Shown here one piece after another: positions 6,003 to 62,494 of a DNA stretch of 64,000 nt. Positions within the stretch are counted from its first letter, which is position 1; every line of letters begins with the position of its first letter. Location: NCBI GenBank assembly GCA_011037195.1, contig JAAEAF010002659.1:94817-158816 (forward strand). Direction: 5' to 3'. The DNA is from Triatoma infestans. Lineage: Eukaryota > Arthropoda > Insecta > Hemiptera > Reduviidae. The notes under the pieces were generated by a model that did no database searches, had not been told where the DNA came from, and saw nothing but the letters and a program-made list of their open reading frames with translations. The translations under genes were made by a program, and so were the position numbers.

Positions 6003-6653
6003 GGGAAGGGAATAGCGTATGAAAAGTGGTTAGCGTACTGGACTCCGATGCGGAGGACCCGGGTTCGAGTCCAGTTCTGCTACCCTTAGATTTTTTTTTT
6101 CTTCCTAGGAGCCTCTACAGCTCACTGTCCGGTGATGGACATGTTTGTTTGTAACGAGAGAACACTGTCCGAGGCCGGCAGTGCACTGAGAGGCTCCGGG
6201 CGAAAAAAAGGGAGAATTTTAGCTCAGTGGTTGGCGCGCATGGACTCCCACGCGGAGGAACCGCGTTTGAGTCCAGCATTACTGCCCTTAGATTTTTCTT
6301 CTTCCTAGGAGCCTCTACAGCTCACTGTCCGGTGATGGACAGTGTTGTTTGTAACGAGAGAACACTGTCCAGAGGCCGGCAGTGCACTGAGAAGGCTCCG
6401 GGCGAAAAAAAAGGGAAGAGATTTTAGCTCAGTGGTTGGCGCGCACTGGACTCCCACGCGGAGGAACCGCGTTTGAGTCCAGCATTACTGCCCTTAGATT
6501 TTTTTCTTCCTAGGAGCCTCTACAGCTCACTGCCCTGTGATGGAAAGTGTTGTCTGTAACGAGAGAACACTATCCAGAGGCCGGCAGTGCACTGAGAAGG
6601 CTCCAGGCACCAATAACCATAGATGTTGATGCGCCTTAAATTAAAAAAAAAAA
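6003..6653 (+). mobile_element. Head-to-tail SINE trimer (family S1)
   Basis: Three tRNA-like heads with three bodies run in the same direction. Unit 1 is about 6003-6209, unit 2 about 6210-6412 and unit 3 about 6413-6653. Units 1 and 2 end at an A-run (CGAAAAAAA) directly followed by GGGA of the next head; only unit 3 keeps the true SINE tail (GATGTTGATGCGCCTTAAAT plus A-run, then (AC)n). Unit 1 has box B GGTTCGAGTCC; units 2 and 3 share TTTTAGCTCAGTGGTTGGCG as box A and a changed box B, CGTTTGAGTCC, so they are more closely related to each other. The arrangement could come from one trimeric RNA or from local tandem duplication. Confidence 0.85.
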
Positions 6654-9910: not shown

Positions 9911-10949
9911 CATATACCATACCCTGTATAATATAAACTAATATTATAATATAAAATTAGAGATATATTTAACATACACTAGATATATAATTTAGATTAT
10001 CATTTTAATAGGGATCATTGAAAATCAAATCAAGCGTGATCCCAACATATACGGAAAATCTTATGGAAATTGATAAGATGTTTATATTTTTTGTCTACGT
10101 GTGAGAATATATTTGAAAAGTGAATAGAGAAATTACTGGTAAACAAAGCTTTAGAAACTGGCCAAGAGCATGTCGTCACAATGCTAGCGTGCTACCGCGC
10201 AATTTGCACTATCACCATCCCAAAGATAACATTGAAAATAAGTATAGTAACAAACTGAACCATAAAGTAACTTATATCAAGAAAATATCTTTTATAAAAC
10301 ATATCTATAAAGTGACTAAAGAATTCCTTTAACACTATAACTATAAAAAACTATAAACTTTCTCACGCACAAGCAAACTAACAACAAAAAAATAAATAAA
10401 TAAAATCTGTAGAATTATAAAACTGGCTGTAAAAAATAAAACATGCAATAAGTTTACAAAACTAGTAATCACAATTTTAAAACAATGTATTCTTTTGAAT
10501 AATAAATGAGAAAAATATCTCCACAACTGAAACTGCTCAGAAAAATCCACAATTTTGATTAACGAATTATGAACGTAACATTGATGTCAAGGTCTCCAAA
10601 TGATCATAGAAGTATAATATCATCTCTGATCTTCCTGCAGTATTTCATTTTTGAGATATTTCGTTACAATATAATGTCTACATAAATATATGTATAGCTC
10701 TATGGACCTAACCACAATAAAGATATGATGAACGGGATATGTACATTAATAGATAAACATATATTTATTACCTACAAGAGATCTCATTTGAGATCATTTT
10801 TTTCACAGAGATCTTTTCTTTCCAATTGGAAACTCCAATTCAGAAATTTGACATGATCGCGAGCTATCCCACTATTGGCAAAAAGAGAAAAACAAAAACC
10901 TTTAATGATCTGATAAATACTTGATACCTAATAAATTATCATACTTTTT
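9911..10949. other. AT-rich interval, no gene seen
   Basis: The frame at 10120-10332 and others are short and featureless. No repeat that I can link to other parts of the window. Confidence 0.45.
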
Positions 10950-11695
10950 ACTTTCTCCTACTCTTAGTAAGAGGAAGTATTGTCAACGTGTCAAATTTTC
11001 AATATTGAATTTACACAGGAAATATCCATTTTGAGGTCCTAAAAAACTGGTTTTTAGAAAATGGTCTGTGTCTGTGTGTGCATGTATGTGAAAAGCATAG
11101 CTAAAAAATGAAAAAACGTAGAAAACTTGATATTCCATTTAGGTATCACCATGGGATCTGACAGAGTAGGTTATCTGTCAAAATTCCTCAACCGAAATAC
11201 CACTTTACTGAATTTTTATTTATTTTACTTATTTGCAATTTTCTCAAAAATGGCTCCAACGATTTTCTTGAAACTTAGTATATCAACTACACATACAAAG
11301 AGCTAAAATTTTTACCCTAAACATTTCTCTGAGAAAGGGCAGTTTTTGGAGAGGGGTAGGGTTAGAAGTTTTCCTCTAAAGTGCTATTTCAGTTTATTAC
11401 ACAATTCTATTCATCATCTAAATCATGTTAATTATAATTAAATGTGTTGTTGACACACCAAGTTTGAATAATGACCGGATGACCGGAAGTGCGTTTTTAC
11501 AGAAAAGTATTTTTCAGTTTTCTGCTATTTTTACTAAAACGTCTCCAACCATTTTTCTTTAAACTTGGAATGTGTACTATATATATAATAAGCTACACCT
11601 TTTATTTGAAACATTTCTTCGGGTAAAGTCATTTTTAAGGGGCTTTTGGGAGGAGGGATAGGGTTATGTTTGCTACTAAGATCGCCGGAAGCAGG
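10950..11695 (+). repeat. Rpt-1 copy, truncated at 3' end
   Basis: Starts ACTTTCTCCTACTC with the terminal hairpin (TAGTAAGAGGAAGTATTG) and contains module 1 (CAACCG..., near 11188) and module 2 (GACCGGAAGTGCG, near 11475). It ends in the GGGAGGAGGGATAGGGTTA stretch of module 2 and lacks the distal hairpin. See the full copy at 14638-15657. Confidence 0.8.
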
Positions 11696-14063: not shown

Positions 14064-14637
14064 AAAAAGTTTAAATAATTTTTTTTATAATTACTCCTTT
14101 TACCAGAAATTTATTAATTTTTGGAAACAAGATTTTTTTTAATTTTATTTTTACAAAAACTTCTATGAATATAATTCCACAAACAAGTGTCATTAGAGAA
14201 TCCACGTTTTTCTTAGACACCACCTTACTTTTTGAACAGTATGAGGCTATACGGGTAGATGGATTTGGACCTAATTAAATGAAGAACTTTTCGTGAAATT
14301 TGTGGATTTGAAGTACTGCTCACAGTAGAGTAATTGAGCGGGAGATAATTTCCGGTAAATAGTTATATCAGCATTTTAACACTAATAAATTATACACTTT
14401 CCTCCTACATACCAATCAATAAATTGACATGACATTTAAGAATTTTTATGCTCTATTTTCCAACGGATTAATAAGATTTATTATTGCACCAGCAGTGTAG
14501 GATTTATGAACGATTTTTTTTTTTTTTTTTTTTGTGGTAAAGTCGAAAAATGTCAACACCAAAAAAAAGTCACAAAATATGTTACATCTCCATACCAAAT
14601 GATAGATAATTGTACCATAGTTTATATGAATTGTTTT
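14064..14637. other. AT-rich interval, no gene seen
   Basis: Contains a T-run at 14516-14533 and no coding or repeat signal that I can support. Confidence 0.45.
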
Positions 14638-15657
14638 ACTTTCTCTTACTCCTAGTAAGAGGAAGTATTGTAATCGTGTCAAATTTTCGATATCGAGTTT
14701 TCACCGGAATATCCGTTTTGAGGTCCCCTGAGTCCAAAAAAGTGGTTTTTAGCAAATGGTCTGTGTGTGTATGTGTTTATATATATATGTATGTGAACAG
14801 CATAGCTCAAAAACAAAAAATCGTAGAAAGTTGAAACTTGATATTCCGTTTAGCTATCACCATGGGATTCGACGGTGGGTCATCTGTCAAAATTCCTCAA
14901 CCGGAAGTACCACTTTATTAGTTATTTTTTTTTTTACGTTTTTGCAATTTTCTCAAAAATGGCACCAACGATTTTCTTCAAACTTTATATATCAACTACA
15001 TATACTAACAACTACAACTTTTATTTGAAACTTTTCTCCGGGAAAATTCATTTAAGGGCACTTCTGTGGGAGGGGTGGGGTTAGGTTTTCATTTAAAGTG
15101 CTATTTCAGTTTATTAGACAATTCCATCATCGAAATAATGTTAATTAGAATTGAATATGTTGTTGAAATTCCGAGTTTGAAAAAAATCGGATAACCGGAA
15201 GTGTGTTTACATTACCACTTTACTAAATGATTTTTTTTTCACTTTTTCGCGATTTTCTCAAAAATGGCTCCGACGATTTTTCTTAAAACTTCGTATATAA
15301 ACTAAACAAAGAATGATCTACATCATTTATTTAAAAAACTATTCTCTGGGAAAATTCACTTAAGGGCACTTTAGGGGAGGGGTAGGGTTAGAGCTTCCTC
15401 TAAAGTACTATCACAGTTGATTATACAATTCTATCATCCAAATAAAATTAATTAGAAATATAAATAGATGGATAAAATTACGAGTTTTAAGCAAATTAGT
15501 AAACCGGATGTGCGCTTTTACTGGAGAGTTTTTTTTTTCAGTTTTCGACGAATTTCATTAAATTTGGTACACAAACTATAACATTTGTCAATTATAATTT
15601 TGAGAACTGGAGTAAGAGAAAGTTGTGTGAGTGTTTCACACCAGATTTTTTTTTTTT
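14638..15657 (+). repeat. Rpt-1, full-length reference copy
   Basis: 1,020 bp with no coding capacity. The 5' end ACTTTCTCTTACTC forms a hairpin with the following AGTAAGAG. It is followed by a GATATCGAGTTTTCACCGG block and a TGTGTG tract. Then come three related modules starting near 14898 (CAACCGGAAGTACC), 15192 (TAACCGGAAGTGTG) and 15498 (TAAACCGGATGTGCG), about 300 bp apart; each repeats ATTTTCTCAAAAATGGCTCC, ACGATTTTCTT and GGGGAGGGGTAGGGTTAG blocks. The 3' end is GGAGTAAGAGAAAGT, the inverse of the 5' end, then a second hairpin (GTGTGA/TCACAC), CCAGA and a T-run. Type unknown: not a clear Helitron, MITE or SINE. Confidence 0.85.
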
Positions 15658-18984: not shown

Positions 18985-19560
18985 AAAATAATAATAATTT
19001 GGTGTGAAACACTCCAGGACGTCTTTCACTGGATGCTCTAATCATTTTCATATGGCAAATGTAGTTCAAATTATACTTTTACTCAATTTTAACTGACTTC
19101 TGTCCAGTTTTAACTGTCTGTACAGTTGGAAGAACTTAAACTAAAAACACTTGAGTGGAGCGTGACCACAGTACCCCCTAAATCTACGTATTCCAAAAAA
19201 TGTACACAACAATGATAGATCTAAATACGTGTCCTTAATATATCAAGTTCAAAGAAACTCATATTATCTTTATTGAGAAAATCGCAAAAAACTTAGAAAA
19301 AACCGTTCAGTAAAGTCACATTTCCTGATTAAATGAATTTCTCCGACTCGAAACGTTGACAACATATCCAGTTCTTATTAATATTATTTAGATAAAAATG
19401 ATGATATAAAATACGGAAGTGACACTTCAGAGGAAAGGAGGGGGGCACGTTGTATATCCAACTTAACGAAATATATCAGTCGCCAGCGCAGCCTAAAATT
19501 TGATACAGGCAACGGCGACATATAACGGCTGAATAACAAAGTAATAGCGTTGAAAAAAAA
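18985..19560 (-). repeat. Rpt-1 copy, partial, minus strand
   Basis: Begins with the inverted distal hairpin (TGGTGTGAAACACTCC near 18999-19016) and continues with module sequence in reverse (GAAAATCGCAAAAA, AGTAAAGTCACATTTCC, GAAAGGAGGGGGGCACG). The proximal end is missing; it stops before the Harbinger tail. Confidence 0.65.
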
Positions 19561-19659
19561 AATATCGAGGAAAGTCTCTAGGGGTATGCCCACACTTGTG
19601 TGAAAGATTCAGAAGCGGCATTAGCTATTTGTGCAGATTACCTGTTTTTGAAAAGTGCA

Positions 19660-20063
19660 CGAAAAAGAAAAAAGCAGCAAGCCCTCATCTTATGAAATCA
19701 TTTGCAACTGACCTTAAAAACAGCTCGCCGAAAAGAGTATTTAATTACAGGCTATCGAGAGCAAGGAGAATCGTTGAAAACGCTTTTAGGTTGATGGCGC
19801 CAGCGTTCAGAATTTTTCGTAAGCCTATAGAAATGACAGTTACTGGGACTGTGGTTGGTATAGTGTTAACTTGTCTTCTGCTTCAGAATTTTCTTCGGGC
19901 GCAGCCGGATGCAGCAAGACAGTATTCCCCTCCTGGAAGTTTTGATCACGAGGATGAAAGCATTGGTGAAGGCACAAGCAGAGAAGTTGCTTCCAGTGAT
20001 AATGCATCCACTACCACGAACCAAGCATCATTTCTTGCACTTTTGTTGGCATATAATTTTTAA
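19660..20063 (+). pseudogene. PIF/Harbinger transposase, C-terminal fragment
   Basis: The frame 19596-20063 carries FNYRLSRARRIVENAFRLMA followed by FRIFRKPIEMTV and VLTCLLLQNFLR. This is the end of the DDE_4-type nuclease of PIF/Harbinger elements, in which the Glu of RRIVENAFG is the third catalytic residue. The upstream Asp-containing part of the nuclease is absent, and sequence before about 19660 belongs to Rpt-1. About 60 acidic and serine-rich residues follow, ending at TAA 20061-20063. The piece kept its frame, so loss may be recent, or it may be a domesticated exon; I favour a truncated transposon. Confidence 0.7.
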
Positions 20064-20704
20064 TTTACATCCCACAAAACTGTTTGAAGATGATAATCTT
20101 CTATAAAATCAAGTGTCTCTTGATTACAGACATAATCAGAAATCTGCTGTCGGAGATATTATTAATTAATAATAATAGTTGAATACTACCAATTACTAAT
20201 AAAATTATTATTAAAATAATAATTTAATAATATTTAAAATTAATTACATAATAGATCACCTATAAAAATATCATACAACACGTAGCGAGAGATCAACAAG
20301 ATGCATAGAATGTTGAACGAAAATCCAAGTAGTTGGATTCACGACGCGCGGTGGTTGCGTCATGAAAATAAAGGTCCATTCAACTTCCATGAGGCATGCT
20401 ATAACGCATGCCTCACGTTCATCACACAGTGCGCTATGACGCATGCCTCTCTTGAAAGAAAAGTTGCACCCTTTCATTAACCCACCTTCAATCACCCATG
20501 AATTATCCCTGGAAAATGTATCAAATATAAATTGTAGCACCTTATATGTACAATTGTTAAAACAAAATCGTTGGAGCGTATTTTGAGAAAATCGTGAAAA
20601 AATAAAAATTCATTCTTTGAAGTCGTACTTCCGGTTGACTTGATTTTTTTAAATAAAACATTAGTCAAGTCCAGCAATAGTATATAAAAAGAAATATCAT
20701 CGAA
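20064..20704. other. AT-rich interval with a short GC palindrome
   Basis: At about 20390-20413 GAGGCATGC and GCATGCCTC face each other across a 6-base loop, and GACGCATGCCTC occurs again about 35 bases later. From 20575 to 20704 the sequence is a minus-strand Rpt-1 remnant (TTGAGAAAATCGTGAAAAA, GTACTTCCGGTTGA). Confidence 0.5.
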
Positions 20705-21508
20705 GTTTGAATTTTCTCTGACTTTTTGGGTTATATGATCAGTTACTAAAAACCACATTTTCTGACTCAGGGTTCCTCAAATGTGTATTTCCGGTGAAAA
20801 CTCGATATCTTACATTGGACACCATTTGCAATACTTCCTCTTAACTGCTGTTAAGACAAAGTAAGAAAAATCAATTAAGTTTTACTTAATTTTATTAGCA
20901 AATTTATTGTTTTTTTTAATAAAAATGTTTGAAATACTTAAAATATTATAAGATAAGTAGAGGTACAGATTTTATGAAATTGCTGTTGAATGCAAGTGTA
21001 ATATACATCGCCACATAATCATTTCCATTCGATTGATGAATTTTTACAAACCATTCGTGATTCTGAAATAAATATGAGGAATGAGCATATTGCAATTTTT
21101 CCCACTTTACATCGTCTGAGAATTGTAAATGATCTGCGATGAACCTATATTAATATACTTATGTCTAAACTCTTTATAGAATCTCCAGTAAAAATAAAAG
21201 TATAGTAAATTCTCAGATTTGTTGTGGAGTTAGTGTGAAACTAAGTCTCTGTACGCATAATCATTTCCCGCTATCGCCACATAATCATTTTTATTAAAAA
21301 AAACAATAAATTTGCTAATAAAATTAAGTAAAACTTAATTGATTTTTCTTACTTTGTCTTAACAGCAGTTAAGAGGAAGTATTGCAAATGGTGTCCAATG
21401 TAAGATATCGAGTTTTCACCGGAAATACACATTTGAGGAACCCTGAGTCAGAAAATGTGGTTTTTAGTAACTGATCATATAACCCAAAAAGTCAGAGAAA
21501 ATTCAAAC
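20705..21508. repeat. Near-perfect inverted repeat, arms ~225 bp, made of Rpt-1 ends
   Basis: The left arm is 20705-20938 and the right arm 21286-21508, with 347 bases between them. The arms include the Rpt-1 5' end with a variant terminal hairpin (CTTAACTGCTGTTAAG) and a shared AT-rich flank (AATTTATTGTTTTTTTT). By eye they are almost identical, much closer than either is to any other Rpt-1 copy. The spacer contains ATCGCCACATAATCATTT near 21010 and again near 21275. Confidence 0.85.
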
Positions 21509-21600
21509 TGTCTGAAAAGCGCATCCTGAAGATGGGCGAACGCCCGAAACCGGTCGATGACCACAAAATGAAGCAGACTTCCACGGAAAATGTCTCTGAT
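21509..21600 (+). mobile_element. Hammerhead foldback element, right half only (copy 5)
   Basis: Bases after the inverted repeat match the right arm of the foldback family, from TGTCTGAAAAGCGCATCC to the family end GAAAATGTCTCTGAT. The left arm is missing, so this copy cannot fold as a palindrome. No target-site duplication is visible. Confidence 0.8.
21522..21559 (+). ncRNA. Type I hammerhead ribozyme candidate (copy 5)
   Basis: Order of parts: CATC (helix I), CTGAAGA (core), an unpaired T, GGGC-GAAC-GCCC (helix II), GAA, then ACCGGT plus C (helix III palindrome and GTC cleavage triplet), then GATG pairing back to CATC. All conserved core residues are present. Predicted cleavage follows C at 21555. 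Confidence 0.7.
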
Positions 21601-22164
21601 AAATTGTCAGAATCAGTTTTATTATAGAGGCCAAGTATTTAGACAATTAAATTCGTATTCCTTTTTCTTATTAATAATTCCAGTATATTTCTCTCCCGTT
21701 AATCTTAATTGAGTGATAAATTGTAGAAATGTAAGATTACATTAAATTTGGAGAGCATGATTATCTAAATTATAATTACAAATTACTCTAAATAGTGAAT
21801 TATATTAGGAATTGAGTACTTTATTTATGTCTCTGCTATGTCGGTAATTATTCATTTTATTTATTAAATTATTCAGTTCCTTTTTTTTATAAAGATAGGA
21901 TATTCTGTAAGTCCCATACATTCATAGCTCCTATAGGCTGTAACAAATTTTTAACAGAATCGACCCAATTAAATGGAATATGTTTATTAAATAAAACAGA
22001 GTTCACATAATCTTTTATAAAAAATATGTGGCATTCCTCCATTTCCAAAATTTTTAACCACCAAGAGATGGCCTGCTTAAAGATTTGTGCTTGTAAATAT
22101 ATCCTTCCCATTTCTAATCTAACATAGTGGTCAGGAGTAGAACGTGGAAGCAAGAAAAAAGACC
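21601..22164 (-). pseudogene. Non-LTR retrotransposon RT C-terminal region, degraded
   Basis: The minus frame at 22153-21887 reads LPRSTPDHYVRLEMGR, then WWLKILEMEE and FNWVDSVKNLLQPIGAMNVW. After a frameshift the coding similarity seems to continue through KELNNLINKMNNYRHSRDIN and LTGEKYTGIINKKK to about 21600. This block layout (short Arg-rich helix after the RT thumb, then NWVxxVKxLLxxxGxxxVW) is seen downstream of RT in several animal LINE groups. I do not commit to a clade. It is cut off at its 5' side by the repeat arm that begins at 22165. Confidence 0.5.
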
Positions 22165-25384: not shown

Positions 25385-25436
25385 ATAAAAAAAGTCTCAG
25401 AGACATTTTCCGTGGTAGCCTGCTTCATTTTGTGGT

Positions 25437-25474
25437 CATCGACCGGTTTCGGGCGTTCGCCCATCTTCAGGATG
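25437..25474 (-). ncRNA. Hammerhead ribozyme candidate, left arm (copy 1)
   Basis: The exact reverse complement of the motif at 25627-25664, so an antisense transcript would also contain an intact core. Helix I CATC/GATG, core CTGAAGA, helix II GGGC/GCCC, GAAACCGGTC. Predicted cleavage lies at the minus-strand GTC next to 25441. Confidence 0.75.
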
Positions 25475-25626
25475 CGTTCTTCAGACAGTGTGTCAACACA
25501 GACTCGTACAGAGACTTAGCTTCACACTAACGGTCTCTGTACTGTTGTACTTAGCTTGACTAACGGTCAGTTAGTGTGAAGCTAAGTCTCTGTACGAGTC
25601 TGTGTTGACACACTGTCTGAAGAACG

Positions 25627-25664
25627 CATCCTGAAGATGGGCGAACGCCCGAAACCGGTCGATG
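25627..25664 (+). ncRNA. Hammerhead ribozyme candidate, right arm (copy 1)
   Basis: CATC 25627-25630, core CTGAAGA 25631-25637, one unpaired T, helix II GGGC-GAAC-GCCC, GAA, self-complementary ACCGGT, cleavage after C 25660, GATG 25661-25664. The helix III palindrome leaves no loop, so catalysis would need two molecules to pair, as proposed for other very short helix III hammerheads. The unpaired T at position 10.1 is the one departure from the textbook motif. Confidence 0.78.
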
Positions 25665-25752
25665 ACCACAAAATGAAGCAGGCTACCACGGAAAATGTCT
25701 CTGATGCTTTCCAGCTCTGCGGAACCAACCACCACAACAAATAAAAAAAGTC

Positions 25753-30738: not shown

Positions 30739-31777
30739 TATCGATAAACATTAATTTTGTATCAGTCACTAAATAAACTATGAAATTTGGTGTGCGTAAA
30801 GGGTTAAAGACTGTTTTCACAATGACCCTTATATTTCTGGATGAAAACTTAATTTGGAACATTTGACAAGATCGCAATAGATTCTCTTGGAAAGTAGATT
30901 AAAGCCGATTAAACAATGTATTAAAAAATAAAGAGAGACGACTATAATAATAATTATCTATTTTATTTGTAGGAATTTTATTTCTTTAGTAGAAGCACAT
31001 AAAAATAAATAACATTTTTTTTTTTTTTTCTATTGTTGTAGAATAATTTTTGCATAAAAAGAAATAAGTATGTCTTTAGTAGTAGTTATATTGTTAGTAA
31101 TGGAAGTATTTCTTACCTGGGACATTACCCTTTAAACCACCCATCCAGCCTATTTCCTTTAGTAAAAGTACAATTGTAAGTTAAATTTGAGGTAAGAAAT
31201 GTTGTTCTGTGGTGAACACATCTTACCTTCAGTTCAATACTGTAGAGTAAAAGAAAGAAGTTGGGGAAGTTTTCTGTATGTCCCATCCATTTTACTAGTT
31301 TCTCTCCCTTTCTTTACTTCTTAGCAGTCTTTTCGTACAAAACTCATACCCAAGTATAAAACCAGCCCTTCTCTAAACATCAGGAAGAGTCATAGAGAGG
31401 CATTAGATACGGCTCACTGCTCGTTTAGAACGCCAAAGAAAGAAAATGGTATACTACCACAACAAAACAGAAAATTAGGTTAATTCTCCTCTTCCCCCCT
31501 CAAACTATTAAATTAAACAAAGTAATAGATTATTTTAAAAGCTTCTTTCTTTATGCGCTTCTAGTTCTTAATCCCTATTTTTTAAGGATTCTAATTATTT
31601 TATTAAGTTGTGTTATTTGAGTTACTAAAAGCACAAAATTTTTATATCCTTCTAATTAAAATAAATATAGAATTGCACATAATATATAAACTACCTGAAA
31701 TTGCGTTTTTTACCGAAATATAAATATTTACAGAAAGGCTGCAATAATAATAGTAAAAGTCTAAAATGCCAAATTGA
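30739..31777. other. Interval without a recognisable gene
   Basis: A minus-strand Rpt-1 scrap lies at about 30810-30900. A TATA-like AAGTATAAAACC at about 31354-31365, after a pyrimidine-rich stretch, might be an old promoter or LTR; no second copy exists in the window. An (GTAC)n stretch precedes at 30352-30364. Confidence 0.35.
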
Positions 31778-31941
31778 TGTTGTGGTTGATTCCGCAGAGC
31801 TGGAAAGCTTAGATTTGCACAGATCAAATATAACAGTGTTATCACACTGTTTGACAAACGCATATCCTGATGATGGGCGTACGTCCGAAACCGGTCGATC
31901 ACCACAAAAAGAAACAGGCTATCACAGAAAATATCTCTGAG
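31778..31941 (+). mobile_element. Hammerhead foldback retroposon, deleted (copy 6)
   Basis: The long end TGTTGTGGTTGATTCC plus GCAGAGCTGGAAAGC is joined directly to the centre and right arm, so most of the left arm is gone. The ribozyme region is retained. The target duplication is not visible. Confidence 0.8.
31864..31900 (+). ncRNA. Hammerhead ribozyme candidate (copy 6)
   Basis: Core CTGATGA (the commonest natural form), helix II GGGC-GTAC-GTCC with one G·T wobble, GAAACCGGTC intact. Helix I is reduced to ATC/GAT. The different core base and the wobble show that this copy diverged from the others without losing the fold. Confidence 0.65.
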
Positions 31942-32074
31942 TTAAAAGATGGATTAGTTGTGTTGATACACTGCAACTAATGACAATAATTTCATTTAGA
32001 CATTTCACGAAATTTCTTTGCTAATTATTATCATCAGATTGGATCCGTTGAACCAATCAAGGATTTTTCACCAT
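31942..32074. other. Short AT-rich interval
   Basis: No signal seen. Confidence 0.4.
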
Positions 32075-32270: not shown

Positions 32271-32479
32271 AGAAATTGAAGATATATTTTTTTTTTTTAA
32301 TAATCACATAATAGAAATTTTTTAATAATAAATTTTTAAATACAACGTCAATTAAAAACAATTACATGAAATTCTATTAAATTTAATAATCATATCTTAA
32401 TTATACAAATTTACAAATATCATTTCATGTTCCACTGTGCCATTAAAGCGGGATTAGCTCGAATTTCGGTACGAATTTA

Positions 32480-33440
32480 ATAACTTTTTTCTTTGTTTTA
32501 AGTTTTTCGCGCCCTATTTCCCTGTGAAAGCTGGAGTACCGCAAGGTAGTATTTTAGGTCCCATTTTGTACACAATACACACTGCTGACCTTCCCCTAAA
32601 TCCTAATACAGTAACATCAAACTTCGCTGATGATACTGCTATTCTTTCCTCCCATACCGAACCTACTATTGCCTCTAGTCATCTTCAAGATCAACCTTCC
32701 TTAATAGAAGAGTGGTGCAAAAAATGGAAGATAAAAGTTAATGAAAAGAAATGTATTCACACCACGTTTACACTTCGTCACTCCTTCTGTCCTGGTGTTA
32801 AATTAAATAACACCTTCCTACCTACTGCTGATAGAGTACGCTATCTTGGGTTATATATGGGCAAAAGACTAACAGGGACACCTTCCCCCCATACCAGACT
32901 GAAAAGGATTGAAACTAATAGACGATTTCTTATCCATTCAAGACTCTTAGACAAACGATCCAAACTTACTTTAAAAAATAAGCTTATACTTTACAAAACT
33001 TTACTACGACCAATATGGACCAGAGGTATGGGGCTCCACCAAACATTCCAACCTTTACCGTATCCAATCTTACAGTCCAAAATCCTACGAAAAATTACCA
33101 ATGCTCCTTAAGTCTCCAATAAAACCTTACATAATGACCTATCCATTCCATTTGTGTCCGATCTAATTAAATGCCGTTATCAAAAATTCCTCCTTGTTCC
33201 ATCATCATAATACTTTGGTTCAACAACTTGCTAGTCAAATCTTAACCCGATAATCCATCCCAACGCATGAAGCGTCAGTGTCCTCGTGACCTTTTAAATT
33301 AACTTAAACGCCATGAAGTAATAATAGCACTGGGTATTTTCTTCTTATGTAAATTATGTCATGTAAACATTCATCAAATTTACTTATTGTATCTATTGTA
33401 CAGTCGCAAATACATTACTGAAGGAGAGAAAAAAGGAAAG
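32480..33440 (+). mobile_element. Jockey-clade LINE, 5'-truncated (copy 2)
   Basis: Starts near the RT palm and runs through the RT C-terminus and the 3' UTR. It contains the best-preserved reading frame of the window (32524-33111). After that frame ends at TAA, the coding similarity continues in shifted form (VSNKTLHNDLSIPFV near 33113-33155). The end near 33440 is not marked by a clear A-tail. Confidence 0.85.
32524..33111 (+). CDS. Jockey reverse transcriptase fragment (195 aa)
   Basis: This frame encodes the second half of a LINE reverse transcriptase, which copies element RNA at the target site. It has GVPQGSILGPILY at residues 4-16 (RT motif 4), SNFADDTAIL at about 52-61 with both catalytic Asp, RYLGLYMGKRLTG at about 107-119, and the Jockey-type SKILRKITNAP at the end. 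The full protein would be about 900 residues, so fingers, endonuclease and gag are missing. The M at the start is internal to the original protein. Some tail residues are altered (GMGLHQTF instead of the usual GIELWGST). Confidence 0.8.
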   Translation: MKAGVPQGSILGPILYTIHTADLPLNPNTVTSNFADDTAILSSHTEPTIASSHLQDQPSLIEEWCKKWKIKVNEKKCIHTTFTLRHSFCPGVKLNNTFLPTADRVRYLGLYMGKRLTGTPSPHTRLKRIETNRRFLIHSRLLDKRSKLTLKNKLILYKTLLRPIWTRGMGLHQTFQPLPYPILQSKILRKITNAP

Positions 33441-38186: not shown

Positions 38187-39130
38187 TTTTTTAAACGGGG
38201 GAGAGGCAATGCACTGCCACCTTTCGATCTATTGTGCTATGCCACCTGGGTGCCGCAGGGTTAGAACATCCGTTCTAAAGAACCTCCATCAGTTAAGATC
38301 CCTGAGGAATCCTAGTTACCTGGGGGGGGGAGCTTTAGGGAGGGTGTATCCCCGTCCTCCACCCAGATTCTTGAACCTTCTCTGAATGCAGCCTCGCAGT
38401 CCGTTAGGAGATGTTATGGCGTTTCCTCCAACTCCCTACAAAGTCTGCATGAGCTGTCAGTTTCCACACCCAGCTTCGTCAGGTGTCCTCTGAGTCGGCA
38501 ATGTACCGCGAGGAAACAATGTAAGAATGCCGAGCTTGTTCTTAATCAAGCCGATGCAGGCCTCTGATCTCCGTTTATTATAATTTCCCACGCAGATCTT
38601 GGCCTGCCGCAAACCGGGGAGAGAGTTCCAGAGTTGAGATCTCTTTGCCTCCTCCTCTTTCCTAAGTTCTTCCAAAAGAAACTGGTCGCTGACCCCACAA
38701 TAAGGTTCCGGCCCTAGAAGCGGGGTCGCAATGCCTATCTTCGCCAGGGCGTCAACCATCTCATTCCCATCAATGCCAACATCCTCTGGCACCCACCGAA
38801 GGATAACTTTATTCCTTCTGCCTAGGTTTTTAAGTTTAGCTAGGCATTCCCAGACCATTTTAGAGCTGATAACTGAAGCACTCAATGCTCTAATGGCTGC
38901 TGGGCTATCGGAAAAGATTACAATCTCCTGAGTAATCCTATATCCCCTATCGAGGTTAAATTGAACGCATCTTCCAATAGCGTGTATAACTGCTTGGAAG
39001 ATGCTGAGAAACTTACTCATAGGTTCCGGGTGCTTGGTCCTTGGACAAACCTCCCCTGCCCCAGTCCCCTCGAGGGTCTTAGACCTATCAGTATACAATG
39101 TGATGGCATGTTCTTTAATGCAAAATATAC
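38187..39130 (-). mobile_element. RNase H-bearing LINE (family B), 3' part
   Basis: A 213-residue minus frame (39098-38457) covers the RNase H domain and the connector. It has MYTDRSKTLEGTGAGE (first Asp), IFQAVIHAI where the catalytic Glu should sit (Val instead), IFSDSPAAIRAL (Asp), and WVPEDVGIDGNEMVDALAK (final Asp; the usual His is Asp here). The conserved linker EPYCGVSDQFLLEEL follows. After it, shifted coding for a Cys-knuckle continues to about 38390. The 3' UTR ends in an A-run (T-run 38187-38196). The enzyme would be inactive. A second copy is at 54253-54790. Confidence 0.82.
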
Positions 39131-39184
39131 ATACTTACTATGCTTTATTTATACTGGTTAAAAAAAATAGCCTGCTCTAAATAT

Positions 39185-40235: not shown

Positions 40236-40590
40236 TCAGAGACATTTTCCGTGGTAGCCTGCTTCATTTTGTGGTCATCGCCTGGTTTCGGGCGTTCGCC
40301 CATTTTCAGGATGCGTTTGTCAGACAATGTGATAACACAGACTTGCACAGAGCAAATTCAGTTTATACACTCACTGTGTATAAACTGAATGTATAAACTG
40401 AAGGAGAACTGAATGGAGTGTATAAATTGAATTTGCTCTGTGCAAGTCTGTGTTTTTCTCACTGTCTGACAAACGCATCCTGAAGGTGGGCGAACGCCCG
40501 AAACCGGTCGAATGACCACAAAATGAAGCAGGCTACCACGGAAAAAATGTCTCTGATGCTTTCCAGCTCTGCGGAACCAACCGCCACAAC
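40236..40590. mobile_element. Hammerhead foldback retroposon, full length (copy 2)
   Basis: 355 bp flanked by AGTTTTATTTTA at 40224-40235 and 40591-40602. The short end TCAGAGACATTTTCC is on the left and the long end with CAGCTCTGCGGAACC and CGCCACAAC on the right, as in copy 1. The centre differs from other copies (GTGTATAAACTGAA in both arms). Both ribozymes have a core change: right arm CTGAAGG, left arm CTGAAAA. Confidence 0.88.
40476..40514 (+). ncRNA. Hammerhead ribozyme, core-mutated (copy 2)
   Basis: Helix II and GAAACCGGTC are intact, but the last core base is G instead of A (CTGAAGG) and helix I has an inserted A (GAATG). A change at this core position normally abolishes cleavage, so I expect it to be inactive. 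Confidence 0.6.
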
Positions 40591-47104: not shown

Positions 47105-47445
47105 ATGTTGTGGTTGGTTCCGCAGAGCTGGAAAGCATCAGAGATATTTTCCGTGATAGCCTGCTTCTTTGCTTGGTGGCCATCGACAGGTTTCGGGCGT
47201 TCCCCCATCATTAGAATGCTTTTTGTCAAACACTGTGATAACATAGATTTGCACAGAGGAAATGCAGTTGATACACTAAATGCAAATTTTGTTGAAACAC
47301 TAAAGTTGAGTGAATCAAATGAATTCGCTCTCTGCACGTCTATGTTACCACTCTGTTTGACAAAAGGCATCCTGATGATAGGCGAACGCCTAAATCCGGT
47401 CGATGACCACAAAAAGAAGCAGGCTATCATGGAAAATAACTGTAA
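47105..47445. mobile_element. Hammerhead foldback retroposon, diverged (copy 3)
   Basis: 341 bp flanked by TTACTGGGGAATAG at 47091-47104 and 47446-47459 (14-bp duplication). The long end TGTTGTGGTTGGTTCC is on the left here, so the orientation is opposite to copies 1 and 2. Arms have diverged more than in other copies. The right-arm ribozyme has core CTGATGA and helix II AGGC-GAAC-GCCT, a paired A-T change relative to GGGC/GCCC, but GAAA has become AAAT. Confidence 0.87.
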
Positions 47446-52300: not shown

Positions 52301-52919
52301 ATATAGTGATTACGATAAAATATTTCCATTAATTTCTGTGGAAGGTCTAATAAACGACATAAACATCTGTACAAAATAACTATTTATGTTGAATTGTGTA
52401 TCTTTCCAGAAAATTAATCAATATTTTTTATTTCTAGCTTCAAGAAGCGTCAATCCTCTTTCTCTTAGGCGCGGTGCACACTAAGGAGATACGGTATATG
52501 CAACAAGTGAAATGATATGAACGTGACATGAACATGTGACAAGCGTGAAGATCGAGTTGAAGCGACAAAACATAGTGCACACTTATACGATAGCGATTCT
52601 GTGGCGACACCTATCGGTATCGTATCGGTAAGAACAATACGGCGTTCTGGTGTCCGAGGCAATGAAGTATTGCGCGATATCTCGTGATAACATCATGGCT
52701 GTCTCGCAAGAGGAAGCGTCTGCTACGATTTCTTTCGTAAAAATTAGTTGAAAACAATCCATGCTTGTGGAATTACATTTCTTTAAATTTTTCGGCGTGT
52801 TGAGGCAGTTCACGAGAAACAACCTCCGAACTATGTTTTATGTTTGTTGTGGTGGTTGGTTCCGCAGAGCTGGAAAGCATCAGAGACATTTTCCGTGGTA
52901 GCCTGCTTCATTTTGTGGT

Positions 52920-52956
52920 CATCGACCGGTTTCCGGCGTTCGCCCATCTTCAGGAT
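52920..52956 (-). ncRNA. Hammerhead ribozyme candidate, left arm (copy 4)
   Basis: The minus strand has CTGAAGA, GGGC-GAAC-GCCG (one mismatch in helix II), GAAACCGGTC, GAT. The core is intact; a weaker helix II would probably slow it. Confidence 0.6.
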
Positions 52957-53097
52957 GCGTTTTTTTAGACAGTGTGAGGACACAGGCTCGTACAGAGCAA
53001 ACAGTTTCACACTAACTCAGTTAGTTAGAATAACTTGAGTTAGTGTGAAACTATTTGCTCTGTACGAGTCTGTGTCCTCACACTGTCTAAAAAAACG

Positions 53098-53135
53098 CAT
53101 CCTGAAGATGGGCGAACGCCCGAAACCGGTCGATG
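53098..53135 (+). ncRNA. Hammerhead ribozyme candidate, right arm (copy 4)
   Basis: CATC 53098-53101, CTGAAGA 53102-53108, T, GGGC-GAAC-GCCC, GAA, ACCGGT, cleavage after C 53131, GATG 53132-53135. Identical to the copy 1 motif although the flanking arm sequence differs, so the ribozyme part is the most conserved part of the family. Confidence 0.78.
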
Positions 53136-54252
53136 ACCACAAAATGAAGCAGGCTATCACGGAAAATGTCTCTGATATGTTTTATGTTCCTCACATTATA
53201 CGGGTGCACCCAGTACTTTCTCTTCATTCTAGTTCGTTCGTTTTGCTACAACCACCAGTATATACTGCAACAACATTCACTTCGGACAAGCTCATGATTC
53301 GAAATAACCCCAAAAATGTGTCACCCTAATGTCGCTTTTCTTATCGTATCGCGCTGATAGGAACAAGAAATGTTGTATAGATAAAAAAAAAATCACATCG
53401 CTCGATTTATTGTATTATGTTAAATCTCATATCGTATCTCCTTAGTGTGTGCATCGCGCCTTACACCTGTAAGAGAAAACATGTAATATTGTTATATATT
53501 TTTGAAAAATAAGTATTCACCGAAAAAAAAATATGTTCTGAGCCCACTAATTAAGAAAAAAAAAATTTTTTTTATGAATAGTCTGTGTTAGTTTGTGAAC
53601 AAAATATGTCAAGAAAGAAAAGTTGCAGAAAGCTGAACCGGAAGCTTGGTATTCTAGGTATGGGCAATTGATATGAAAATGTCGGGGGCAAATCCATCAA
53701 CCGGAAGTGCATCTTCCCGGGATGTTCTTATTTTTTCCTACTTTTAACGTTTTAGAAAACGGCACCAACGATTTTCTTTTAACTTTTTATATTATCTGCA
53801 ATAATATCTAAACATTTTAATTCGAAACACGTTTCCTTGGATTTTTTTTTTTTTTAAGGTTTCTATGGAAACAGTAGCGTTAAGCTAATAAAGTACTACT
53901 TCGATACTAATGCCTATATAATATTAATGTATATTCGATACATTGGTAGAATTACAAATGTGATGAAAATCGGTTAACCGAAAGTTTCATTGTACAGAAT
54001 ATGTTTTTAAATATTTTAGAATTCTATCGTAAACGACTTTAACGATTTCCTTTATACTTAGAAAACTATCTGCAAGGATTTATAAATTTTTAAAATGTTT
54101 TCTGAAAGAATTTCAGCTGGTTTTGAGACGTTAAAATTGAAATATTATTTTATATATATTTTTGTATTAACTGGAGTAAGAGAAAGTTGGTGTCTGCTTT
54201 CACACCAGTATGTTTTCATGTATGCTTTCATACGCTGTAATAAAATGATTGT

Positions 54253-55573: not shown

Positions 55574-56219
55574 ACTTTCTCTTACTCTTAGTAAGAGGAA
55601 ATACTGTAATCGTGTTAAATTTCGGATATTCAGTTTTCACTGGAAATATCCGTTTTGAGGTCCCTTGAGTCCAAAAAAAGTCACTATGAAATCCAACAAC
55701 ACGGTACCGGTCAAAATTCCTCAACCGGAAGTACCATGTTACCGATTTTTTTTTTTTTTTTTTTCAACTTTTTTACGATTTACTTTAAACTTGGTATATC
55801 AAATACACATACAAAAAAATCTACAATTTTTATATGAAACATTTCTTCGCGCAAAAATGCATTTAAGAGTACTACTCTTGGTGGAAGGGTGTGGTTAGGT
55901 TTTTTCTCTAAAGTACATTTCAGTTTATTACACAAAATTTCTATCATCTAAATAATATTAATTAGAATTAAATATGATCGTTGAAATGCCAAGTTTAAAG
56001 GAAAAATCAGCTGACCGGGAAGTGCGTTTTTTTCTGAAAAGTATTTTTCAGTTTTCTGCTATTTTCTTTAAAAAGGCTACAAGCAATTTTCTTCAAACTA
56101 CGAATGTGAATTATACATATAAAGAGCTACAAGTTTTATTTGAAACATTTCTCCAGGTAAACTCATGTAGGGTTTTATGTTTGCCTCTAAAGTGCTATCT
56201 TAATTATTGATTATACAAT

Positions 56220-56497
56220 TATAATAGATGTGTTAGGTGGAGAAAATTTAGGTCTGGTTGATGATATAAGAAGAAGACTTGGTTAACACTGGTTAACTTA
56301 TATATTAATAAATAGACACAGACTGCCTGGACTATGCAAGAGAGGAATGTTTAAGGTAGAGTGGTATGAGAATGACACGTAGCGATTGGATGTACTGAAC
56401 TGATTTCAACTGTTCTTTTATGGACTGTCCGTCGCTTCTCCCACTCCAGTCCGAGAGAGTGGTTGAGCTCCTCTTGCTCTCTTTGGTTGCTGTTACA
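56220..56497 (-). mobile_element. Solo LTR, family L1 copy E
   Basis: 278 bp; on the minus strand it runs TGTAACAGCAACC to CATCTATTATA. CAAT flanks both sides (56216-56219, 56498-56501). The reference Rpt-1 has ATTATACAATTCTATCATC at this point (near 15420), with a single CAAT: a direct empty site. Confidence 0.9.
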
Positions 56498-56526
56498 CAA
56501 TTCTATCATCCAAACAAAATTAATTT

Positions 56527-57534
56527 AAAAAAAAAAAAATCTGGTGTGAAACACTCACACAACTTTCTCTTACTCCAGTTCTCAAAATGATAATTGACAA
56601 ATTTTATACTTTGTGTACCAAATTTAATGAAATTCGTCGAAAACTGAAAAAACTGTTCAGTAAAAGCGCACTTCCGGTTTACTAATTTTCTTGAAACTCG
56701 GAATTTCAGCCATCTATTTATTTCTAACTAATTATGTTTGGATGATAGAATTGTATAATCAACTAGGATAGCACTTTGATGAAAATCTAACCCCCCCTCC
56801 CCTAAAAGTGCTCTTAAAAGAAATTTCCCAGAGAAATGTTTTAGATAAAAGTTGTAGATCTTTGCATGTTTAGTTTATATAAGAAGTTTCAAAAAAATCG
56901 TCAGAGCCATTTTTGAGAAATTGCGAAAAAGTGAATAAATCATTTAGTAAAGTGGTAAAGTAAACGCACTTCCGGTTATCCGATTTTTTCAAACTCGGAA
57001 TTTCAACAACATATTTAATTCTAATTAACATTATTTAGATGGCAGAATTGTCTAATAAAACTGAAATAGCACTTTAGATGGAAACCTAACCCCACCCCTC
57101 CCCCAAAAGTGCCCTTCAATGCATTTTCCCGGAGAAATGTTTCTAATAAAAGTTGTAGCTCTTTGTATGTGTGGTTGATGTTTGAAGTTTAAAGAAAATC
57201 GTCGGAGCCATTTTTGAGAAAATCGCAAAAAAGTAAAAAATCGAACTAGTAAAGTGGTACTTCCGGTTGAGGAATTTTTACAGATAACGTACAGTCAGAT
57301 CCCATGGTGACCCCTAAATGGAATATCAAATTTCAACTTTCTACGATTTTTCGTTTTTGAGCTTTGCTGTTCACATACATACATACACACACGGACACAC
57401 ACACACACATAGACCATTTGCTAAAAACCACTTTTTTGGACTCAGGGGACCTCAAAACGGATATTTCCGGTGAAAACTCGATCGAAAATTTGACACGATT
57501 ACAATACTTCCTCTTACTAGGAGTAAGAGAAAGT
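56527..57534 (-). repeat. Rpt-1 full-length copy nested in Rpt-1
   Basis: On the plus strand it begins with an A-run and TCTGGTGTGAAACACTCAC (distal hairpin reversed) and ends CTTACTAGGAGTAAGAG, AAAGT. All three modules are present in reverse (CACTTCCGGTTTAC near 56670, CACTTCCGGTTATCC near 56968, TACTTCCGGTTGAGG near 57258), spaced about 300 bp. Confidence 0.88.
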
Positions 57535-57725
57535 AATAAATTAATGGCTAACATTCCGAGTTTCAAGCAAAATTAGTAAACCGGAAGTGCCGTTTTACTG
57601 AGCAGTTTTTTTTTTTCAGTTTTCGAAGAATTTCATTAAATTTGGTACACAAACTATAAAGTTTGTCAATCACAATATTGAAGGCTGGAGTAAGAGAAAG
57701 TTGTGTGATTGTTTCACACCAGATT

Positions 57726-58714
57726 TTTTAAGAAAGAAAATACGGTTAACAAGTAGTATTTATTCTAATAGTTATGCCGTCAAAACTGTCCAATTTTCTT
57801 CCTAACAGAAACGATGAAATTTTGCAATATTAGATATATAAGAAGGGAGAATGCTGGAAATTGTTATAAGATGCTGAAGATTAAAAATGAAACTTTGTAT
57901 AATAGACTGTCAAACCCTAACATATGAGTTCACTATTCAGACGCCCCAAACATAAGGTGATTCATCAAACAAGTATTTACCTCTGGTACAGTGAATACTA
58001 TAATCAATTCAGCAAGGTTATAATTTAAAAAGACAGTGGTTATTAATTCCAATTCATTTTAATTAAAAAGAGTAATAAACAAACAATATAAACAAATTAT
58101 TAATAAATTGCGAATAATAAAAGGAAAAAACATAAAAGGAATAATTGAATATAATCCAAACAAGTACCTTTCCATTAAATTGAACGAATATATAAGTAAA
58201 AAGAATATAAAAAAAAACTATAATTTCAATAGAAAGAAAACAATTGGCTAAATACAATGATTAAATTAAAATGATCAATAATTATTCCAGGTAATTGAAT
58301 CATATTGTTAGAAAAGAAAAATACGTTATTTTTTTTTTTACTAATAGAGTTGAATGTATTCGAGCTAATAAGCAATAGTATTTTTTTCAATTGAAAATAA
58401 TTGATAAAAGAGAATAAATTCAATTACCAATTAGTACAAAAATAATTAATGTAATTACATGATAAGAATAACATATAAGAAATGTTATATGAACAATTGC
58501 AGCATAATCAGAAGAGAACAATACAGAAACACACACACAAGAGTTATTTTTATTACAATAATTACTAATGGGTACATTTTTGCTTTAAACTTAGTCACTC
58601 AAGGTTTACTTAGTCTGTATAATAATAATTATTCATTCGCCCATCATCAGTAAGACACAGCAAGTAGCGTGATAATATGTAGTTGCACTGAACAAAAATC
58701 AGTTTTTAATTTTT
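57726..58714. other. AT-rich interval, no gene seen
   Basis: Near 58636-58665 GCCCATCATCAGTAAG and GTGATAATA weakly recall the left arm of the foldback family. Nothing else recognised. Confidence 0.4.
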
Positions 58715-59396
58715 ACTTTCTCTAACTTAGTGAGAGTATTGCGATCGCGCCAGATTTTCAAAATTGAGTTTTCACCGGAAATATACATTTTGAGGTCCTC
58801 TGAGTTCAAAAAAAGTGGTTTTTAGAAAATGGTCAGAAAGTGTGTGTGGTATGTGAACAGCAGAGCTCAAAAACGAAAAACCGTAGAAAGTTGAAACTTG
58901 ATATTCTGTTTAGGTATCACCATGGCATCTGACAGTGGGTCATCTGTCAAAATTCCTCAACCGGAAGTACCACTTTACTTGTTGGTTTGTTTACTTTTTT
59001 GCGTTTTTCTCAAAAATGACTCCGCGTTTTTCTTTAAACTTGTATGAACTAGACATATAAAGAGCTATAACTTTTATTTGAAATGTTTCTCTGGGAAAAT
59101 TCATTTAAGGGCAGTTATGGGGGAGGGGTGGGGTTGCGGTTTTACTCTAAAGTGCTATTTCAGTTGTAACACAATTCTATCTTTTAAATAATATTAATTA
59201 AAATTAAATATGTTGTCGAAATTCCGAGTGTGAAGAAAATAGGACGACCAAAAGTGCGCTTTATTGAAAGTAATGTTTAGTTTTCTGTTATTTTCTCTAA
59301 AACGGCTCCAACGATTTTCTTTGAACATTAAATATTAACTACAAGTACAAAGAAGTAAGAAAAACCCGTGTGAGTGATTCACACCAGATTTTTTTT
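58715..59396 (+). repeat. Rpt-1 copy with two modules
   Basis: Complete at both ends (ACTTTCTCTAACTTAGTGAG; GTGTGAGTGATTCACACC, AGATTTTTTTT) but only 682 bp: modules near 58958 (CAACCGGAAGTACC) and 59242 (GACCAAAAGTGCG), with most of the second gone. It shows that copy length varies by module number. Confidence 0.8.
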
Positions 59397-61134: not shown

Positions 61135-62494
61135 CTTCTCCTTTGGCTTACGCCAATTAACTAGGGACGGAGACCCTAGGTTGTGTACTGTGTTTGTCCT
61201 TGTCTGTAAAGTGTAGAGTGTATGTAGTTTATGTGTATTGTGTTCTGTTCTGACGAAGTGCATGGAATACTGAGCTGTGGTAACCCGTGGGATTGCTACT
61301 CCCCAAGTAACTGCATGCAACAGTTAGCCCTTGCGGGCTTGTATGACATAATAGTTGTGGATGCGTCTACAGAGGTAGAAAAAATAGGGATTTTTTTCAG
61401 TATAGACGTACATCAATAATTTATTTAGTATTTTTTTAAAGAATTGATAATGTAATACCTTTTTAAAAATGAATGTAATCTTCATCAAGTATAAAGAAAA
61501 GAAAAAAAAAAACATGTTTTATAAACCCAATTAGGTTAAAAATAGTATGTAAACTGATTCTGTTCTGTTCAAGTCTGTGTTATCACTCTCTTTTATCAAG
61601 ACAAACTTGAAAATGGGTAAACGCCCGAAATTTTACTTCAAATATTTTCTCGGAGAAAAATTATTATTTGAGATGTTCTGGGGGAACGTTAACGTTAAGC
61701 TTTCTTCTCAAGTACCACTTCAGTTCAGAGCATGGTTCCCCTCACATCGAAAATATTAATGAGGTAGGTACAAAAGCCAAGATAGTCCCAGAAATAATTT
61801 TTAAATATTTCTCAAAACGTTTCGCCAACCTTATGGCATCATCAATAGAAAACAATCAATTAGGATTGAATATTCATAAAAAATATATGCTGAAACAATA
61901 AAAAAAAACAACGGTTACATTTCTAAAAACAACGTACGGTATCATTGATTATATGAGTATTGATTTGCATGTGATCACAGTAGTGGTGATAGCGTTCAAA
62001 GAAGACTTATCATGAATTTGTTATTTTTGAGAAAAAATATATACTTAAAAAAGAAAAAAGTAGCTGATGGCTGTCACTGATGGATGGAATGGATGACTGG
62101 AGTCGGAAGTATACCAGCCTTCAAGCTATTTCCACTCCATTTTTAATTATTAATTAATTTATTTTTTTACTACCTCATTGCTATCTCATACCTACTTATT
62201 CTCAATTAGTAATCTGAAAATCTATTTGAAAAATATAAATATATATGTATTATTAGAAGCTTGGTAGAATTCAAAATTTAAGAAAAAAAATGGGTTAACC
62301 GGAAGTGCTTTCTTTACCAAATAAGTTGTTGATTTTCTTTCTTCTTTTTTTGTAATTTTCTTAAAAACGACAATAACGATTTCGTTGAAACATGGAATGT
62401 TTAATTGCACAGATATAAAACTGTCTTTTTTTATTTATAAAATTGTTTTCGAAACAAAAAATATTGATTTTTTAATTCTATAGTTACCCCCATC
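61135..62494. other. Interval with small repeat remnants, no gene
   Basis: A degenerate right arm of the foldback family lies at 61566-61630 (CAAGTCTGTGTTATCACTCT, AACGCCCGAAAT). Rpt-1 module scraps are at about 61640-61760 and 62250-62410 (GGTTAACCGGAAGTGC). The rest is AT-rich. Confidence 0.5.

Follow-up and report, generated by a model that had tools for sequence, protein, structure and literature searches.

The palindromic unit and its copies in the window

The analysed stretch of Triatoma infestans DNA (64,000 nucleotides, here called the window) had a G + C content of 33.8%. At 25397–25740 it carried a palindromic unit of 344 bp, bordered by a 12-bp target-site duplication (TSD) whose score was matched by none of 1000 random flank pairs (Table 1). 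The two inverted arms (25391–25531 and 25570–25710) were 141 nt long each and 99% complementary, with 38 nt between them. The first 6 nt of the left arm already belonged to the TSD. An extra 35 nt (GCTTTCCAGCTCTGCGGAACCAACCACCACAACAA) followed on the right arm only, past the beginning of the left arm, and the same one-sided tail was present in all four full copies of the window. The preliminary description had reported a palindrome here, which the arms confirm. It had also called the unit an inverted dimer of ~340 bp: the head-to-head arms were found, but the symmetry was not, as the 35-nt tail of just one arm rules out a plain inverted dimer.

Three further full palindromic copies in the window were 76–88% identical to 25397–25740. 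With four full copies present, a one-off inverted duplication was dropped as a candidate. The partial copy at 21223–21599 was interrupted by ~250 bp of other sequence and had a 12-bp TSD with one mismatch, equalled by 3 of 1000 random pairs. Around the partial copy at 31774–31940, no TSD was found.

Table 1 Features of the palindromic unit and positions of its relatives in the window.
Feature	Position	Strand	Remarks
Left TSD, ATAAAAAAAGTC	25385–25396		12 bp
Tailless inverted pLTR arm	25397–25531	-	Outer end at reverse transcription (RT) start site 1, reading TCTCTGA on the minus strand; the inner end coincides with the probable transcription start
Minimal hammerhead-like core, left arm	25441–25470	-	
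Centre (spacer)	25532–25568		Reversed version found in insertions L007 and L057
Direct pLTR arm with tail	25569–25740	+	A25569 is index 0 and the probable transcription start, in Inr-like TCAGTT
Minimal hammerhead-like motif	25627–25664	+	Predicted cut at 25660/25661
ATG within the hammerhead core	25637–25639	+	Likely ORF start of the Penelope-like element, placed by analogy
Tail, 35 nt	25706–25740	+	CCAACCACCACAACAA in its AC-rich 3' part; outer end at RT start site 2
Right TSD, ATAAAAAAAGTC	25741–25752		
Second full palindromic copy	40236–40590	+	Exact 13-bp TSD AGTTTTATTTTAT; 16 bp with one mismatch
Older full palindromic copy	47108–47445	-	Exact 14-bp TSD CTATTCCCCAGTAA
Full palindromic copy	52845–53176	-	Exact 13-bp TSD AACATAAAACATA
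Partial copy	21223–21599	-	Tailless arm; on the opposite side ~9 nt of the tail end (by eye)
Partial copy	31774–31940	-	Tailless arm and tail; tail arm mostly missing
Degraded pLTR remnant	61545–61630	+	

Other repeats were also recognized in the window. A 227-bp inverted repeat with 99.6% identity was located at 20704–20930 and 21283–21509. Its right copy sits within the copy at 21223–21599, and the repeat may be a young element of its own. At 32458–33108, 38460–39134 and 19554–20060 there were remnants of, respectively, a non-LTR reverse transcriptase, an RNase H domain and a DDE transposase. Together with the G + C content, such transposon fragments point to animal, probably arthropod, DNA. 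The RNase H match was under Pfam's cut-off, and the non-LTR remnant is one that, by eye, we take to be Jockey-like. Two tandem arrays, at 6033–6608 and 56667–57259, had units of 205 and 301 bp, respectively. Relatives of the second array were found at 10946–11666, 14629–15657 and 55775–59263, in mixed orientation.

Penelope-like identity and the hammerhead-like motif

Copies were searched for in the genome (941 Mb, 13,959 contigs). The right half of the unit gave 1139 first-look candidates, from which the best 40 were scored, and a second, tail-free query again gave 1139. We examined the stretches around all 40 scored copies, and longer upstream stretches for eight of them. An inverted arm lay upstream, head to head, in 28 of the 40 fetched copies; within the fetched stretch, the remaining 12 had none.

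Long copies carried protein-coding frames upstream of the same pLTR. In L045 (860–2962, minus strand) we detected a 701-aa frame, cut off at the centre of its own palindrome, with matches to RVT_1 (5.8e-8) and GIY-YIG (5e-4, with a score of 20.7 under Pfam's cut-off of 22.6). L047 had RVT_1 (2.4e-8) and GIY-YIG (6.2e-5, above the cut-off) on two separate frames. Of 7994 candidates, 566 were related to the L045 frame at E <= 0.001, many of these being of Penelope length. The 120 matches listed were 31–53% identical to it, the best being P0001 (53% over 92%), and six of these 120 were labelled GIY-YIG. No counterpart of the first 174 residues of P0001 was found in the genome stretches examined. 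In the window itself, none of the 83 ORFs of at least 82 aa had a GIY-YIG domain.

Because RT and GIY-YIG frames precede the pLTR and the L045 frame has so many relatives, we place the family in the Penelope-like elements (PLEs). These matches show, at the level of the family, that the pLTR is the end of a PLE. The unit at 25397–25740 is an ORF-less PLE insertion in which two pLTRs lie head to head, one of them tailed, between the two copies of a TSD. The preliminary description was right to call it a retroposon and right to point to PLEs. Its suggestion of a new class does not hold, since inverted pLTRs, one of them tailed, together with TSDs are already typical of animal Penelope elements, according to the available sections of PMC3846280 and PMC8969392. 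The PLE reading accounts for short palindromes with two-strand hammerhead-like motifs in this genome without a new class.

Several other searches were negative. A tRNA-derived SINE was dropped as a candidate, as ARAGORN (bacterial mode) found no tRNA in the window and the PLE link was found. Exact patterns had no match in viral contigs and prokaryote genomes, and the right half had none by blastn against phages and plasmids. In a text search of the literature for the motif, the papers listed were unrelated by title. A phrase search for literature on palindromic retroposons found none, by which their absence is unproven.

The motif on the plus strand consists of CATC (25627–25630), CTGAAGA (25631–25637), a T (25638), GGGC-GAAC-GCCC (25639–25650), GAAA (25651–25654), CCGGTC (25655–25660) and GATG (25661–25664), and its mirror lies on the minus strand. 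It is found in both arms because it is part of the pLTR. The window contained five occurrences of the pattern CTGANGATGG..CGAAACCGGTC, whereas 100 shuffles gave a mean of 0.00. Helix III lacks a loop, and a base is inserted at 10.1. The Rfam hammerhead models, run without a positive control, gave no match in the whole window at gathering score, and none at E up to 10 in 25390–25750, 25600–25690, 31800–31960 and 21500–21610 (three copies). Such an outcome may not be surprising for a variant that lacks the helix III loop.

For the whole-unit transcript, the predicted fold was a rod with -291.9 kcal/mol (z -34.5 relative to shuffles), in which the motif pairs with the opposite arm. Short stretches with only the motif folded with stem II, barely beating shuffles (z -1.27 and -0.30). 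As the rod hides the motif, cleavage on both strands is doubtful, and self-cleavage of the whole-unit transcript is doubtful for either strand. The preliminary description had thus given the hammerhead parts in their correct order and positions on both strands. Its covariance-model check, in contrast, found no hammerhead, its folding check recovered stem II but at near-shuffle stability, and its proposal that sense and antisense transcripts both cleave themselves is doubtful, given the missing Rfam match and the pairing of the motif with the other arm.

Two Rfam microRNA models matched the hairpin 25495–25606 with 33.7–36.6 bits, compared to gathering scores of 97–100. Sub-threshold matches of this kind tend to be the usual outcome for a perfect hairpin. 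Palindromes such as this one could feed small-RNA pathways.

The unpaired T at 10.1, previously listed as a caveat, is indeed present (25638), but we read it differently. It would be the U of an AUG, the second base of a likely ORF start. The ATG at 25637–25639 opens a frame of 35 codons, up to 25741, and by analogy with Anolis PAc (see below) is likely the ORF start of the PLE. An intact core with the T was found in 86 of 103 arms, mostly close relatives, and an intact core without it in none; the remaining 17 arms had no strict core, one of them being cut off at the end of its stretch. Among the copies examined, none had a hammerhead ATG that continues into a full ORF, and protein searches with the ORF-start peptide gave no match. 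A conserved coding peptide as such was dropped, the frame being broken in other copies and representing the probable PLE ORF start.

A few arms ended within the motif. The tailless arm of L022 had its inner end at the equivalent of 25661, the first base past the predicted cut. Five other arms were truncated internally at the equivalents of 25633–25656 (L039 at index 64, L024 at 78, L012 at 82, L047 at 84 and L021 at 87). Such arms are too few, so we make no claim about cleaved RNA as a template. We propose that cleavage is unnecessary for the palindromic structure.

Insertion junctions and formation of the palindrome

The origin of the head-to-head arrangement in Penelope elements is unsettled; in its available sections, the rotifer paper (PMC3846280) suggests self-priming and leaves the matter open. 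Since the genome holds many similar copies with TSDs, the question can be read from their junctions. We collected 35 distinct insertions having two arms that reach an index of at least 120 (counted from A25569) and a TSD score of at least 9. They came from the 40 best copies and from 30 stretches of the tail-free query, about half of the latter being duplicates; seven (L049, L051, L057, L062, L065, L067 and L072) were supplied by the tail-free query alone. L018, L050, L053, L064 and L078 remained outside despite two arms or parts of them, including L018, which had a TSD in the comparison of the 40 fetched copies. The sample thus consists of best-scoring rather than random copies, with a first query that included the tail and a selection for TSDs.

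All 35 insertions had one tailless end at site 1 (index 131–141) and one tailed end at site 2 (index 168–171). These are observed insertion ends, from which the RT start sites are inferred. The TSDs were 11–18 bp long, most often 12–13 bp (26 of 35), and measured at least 12 bp in 27 of the 28 two-armed copies among the 40 fetched. The targets were AT-rich, as judged by eye.

In contrast to these fixed outer ends, the inner ends of the two arms varied independently. They were >20 nt apart in 16 of the 35 insertions (range +145 to -1284), and in L012 a 55-nt arm was joined to a 1.45-kb arm. Many inner ends fell within -3 to +5 of one A (CTCAGTT), namely those of 12 tailless and 14 tail arms out of 35 each; 14 and 15 went past it, and 9 and 6 stopped short. 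In long copies, this A sits in GTATTTAAGAATACACCTC/AGTTAG. A sharp 5' stop shared by both arms, beside TATA-like and initiator-like sequence, suggests the start of the element RNA. The TATA-like stretch begins just 18 nt before the supposed transcription start, and the spacing from TATA to start is usually wider. Both arms of 25397–25740 end at this probable start, and the unit therefore consists of two pLTRs without an ORF.

We propose the following course of events. The element RNP would make a staggered cut of about 12–14 bp in AT-rich DNA, and each 3' end would prime RT within the pLTR/ORF-start part of the element RNA, one strand at site 1 (the pLTR end) and the other at site 2 (the tail end, 35 nt further). 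Both cDNAs would extend toward the 5' end of the RNA, the shortest products both stopping at the transcription start, and would be joined mid-way into a palindrome. Two primings, one per strand, would leave the outer ends fixed and the inner ends free, and would make the arms nearly identical. The partial copies 21223–21599 and 31774–31940 fit as cases of a very short tail-side cDNA. As far as the sequences can tell, the junction data suit two cDNAs, each primed on one of the two target strands, better than a snap-back. We consider it likely that 25397–25740 is an ORF-less PLE insert formed by two target-primed cDNAs joined mid-way. A two-strand model for head-to-head structures was not found in the open-access text available of PMC3846280, PMC11167929, PMC8969392 and PMC12910113.

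In the snap-back reading, a cDNA (or an antisense RNA) would fold onto itself and be extended from there, so that a single priming event yields head-to-head copies. Palindromes at the inverted junction led to this proposal for rotifer Penelope elements (PMC3846280, available sections). The spacers of two window copies do contain short repeats of their own arm, with scores that were reached by 7 and 2 of 2000 shuffles for 25397–25740 and by 0 of 2000 for 40236–40590. The repeats are weak in 47108–47445 (56 and 43 of 2000) and absent in 52845–53176 (761 and 80 of 2000). Under snap-back, the arms should match at the centre and the outer end should vary. We observed the reverse: all 35 insertions had an outer end fixed at site 1, the inner ends were far apart in nearly half of them, and the arms of L012 were very unequal. 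We regard self-priming as unlikely.

Two centres were found in more than one insertion. L007 and L057 contain the centre of 25397–25740 (L005) in reverse orientation, and L049 and L064 likewise contain the reversed centre of L002 and L011. Copies with shared centres have different TSDs where scored, L064 being outside the scored pairs. The comparison of centres needed no TSD; the tail of L064 has diverged, its end being placed at 136 by BLAST and its tail side by eye. The other 27 of 34 centres differ by eye from both recurring ones, and L051 and L062 may share one.

Recurring centres in independent insertions, together with the high copy number, would also be compatible with a palindrome that is itself mobile, as a SINE-like non-autonomous element whose rod-shaped master RNA would be copied in a linear fashion, starting at the tail. 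Linear copying, however, preserves the orientation of the centre relative to the tail, and the orientations were 2:2 and 1:2 (in only seven insertions). The differing centres of the other insertions also speak against it, as does the tree of the eight arms from four window copies. There, the arms of one element were sisters, with bootstraps of 60, 70 and 94 and the fourth pair at the root, and a grouping of arms by side was rejected (p-AU 2.5e-9). Gene conversion between arms could be another source of this likeness. We give a mobile palindromic master marginally less credence than self-priming.

With two target-primed cDNAs, the reversed centres could arise as follows. A palindrome transcribed by read-through would serve again as template, and the cDNAs made from it would hold complementary arms that can anneal, so that the centre would be kept in either orientation. 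As either cDNA can carry the centre, both orientations would be expected. A cDNA that crosses the centre would end complementary to the other cDNA, which would aid their joining. In its general form, the proposal is that PLEs make inverted structures through two target-primed reverse transcriptions at obligatorily different RNA sites, and that the palindromes perpetuate themselves by cDNA annealing, the centre flipping at random. To this we assign slightly better than an even chance.

The wide-centre insertions L006 (1160–1499), L009, L018 and L053 had other sequence between the two pLTR arms, and in L006, L018 and L053 both arms finished near the probable transcription start. In this they resemble rotifer cases, where pLTRs are reported to have captured foreign sequence between them.

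It is very improbable that the unit is a metazoan retrozyme that has active type I hammerheads and moves via a small circular RNA. The hammerhead-like core, the ~340 nt size and the strongly self-paired RNA are shared with retrozymes, and, in the available sections of PMC7229834, retrozymes and PLEs occur together, PLEs being suggested as helpers. According to the same sections, however, retrozymes are direct tandem repeats and have canonical type I hammerheads with a real helix III. The repeats found here are inverted, with a loopless helix III, an inserted base at 10.1 and no Rfam hammerhead match, and their sequence forms the end of an element with RT and GIY-YIG. Long inverted repeats and TSDs would also suit a DNA-transposon MITE or a foldback element. 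Such an origin has next to no probability, as the TSDs vary in length, the tail is one-sided and, in long copies, the arm is continuous with RT/GIY-YIG frames.

Comparison with known systems

Small PLE-associated hammerhead variants, reportedly described by Lunse in 2017, are said to cleave as dimers and to have a core without a proper helix III. The motif found here is alike in its core, and its palindromic ACCGGT would allow a helix III between two molecules. It differs in the U inserted before 10.1, and its activity is putative.

In its features, the family resembles the Penelope/Poseidon elements, such as Pen2a of Adineta vaga and PAc of Anolis. In Adineta vaga, Penelope has pLTRs with an adjacent inverted pLTR, most commonly head to head, TSDs of 8–10 bp and an optional 31-bp tail on one inverted pLTR (PMC3846280, available sections). 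The ORF of PAc starts at stem II of the hammerhead, which cuts 26 bp past the start codon (PMC11167929). RT of PAc starts at two internal sites, the main one 111–118 bp into the ORF, the tail of 30–40 bp is the stretch between them, and cutting and extension take place on both strands of the target (PMC11167929). Cleavage by the PAc hammerhead requires the protein of the element and is dispensable for insertion in vitro (PMC11167929).

Unlike Pen2a and PAc, the window copies have no ORF and the copy number is high. The TSDs are mostly 12–13 bp, compared to 8–10 bp in the rotifer. The RT start is alike on both strands in the Anolis element (PMC11167929), whereas here each insertion has strictly one of each site, a difference that weighs against the proposed two primings. 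The distances are close: the tail has 35 nt, against 31 bp and 30–40 bp in the rotifer and Anolis elements, and, counted from the ATG at 25637, the predicted cut lies 24 nt on (26 bp in PAc) and the tail end 104 nt on (111–118 bp for the main RT start).

The unit at 25397–25740 is ordinary in kind, a PLE end, and its value beyond annotation is its bearing on an unsettled step of Penelope transposition. The model of two cDNAs is concrete and testable in the published in vitro PLE system. With Pen2a and PAc the family shares RT and GIY-YIG frames, a pLTR with an inverted, head-to-head pLTR on the 5' side, a tail on one inverted pLTR, TSDs and AT-rich targets, and it may also share a minimal hammerhead over the probable start codon, with the predicted cut ~25 nt downstream.
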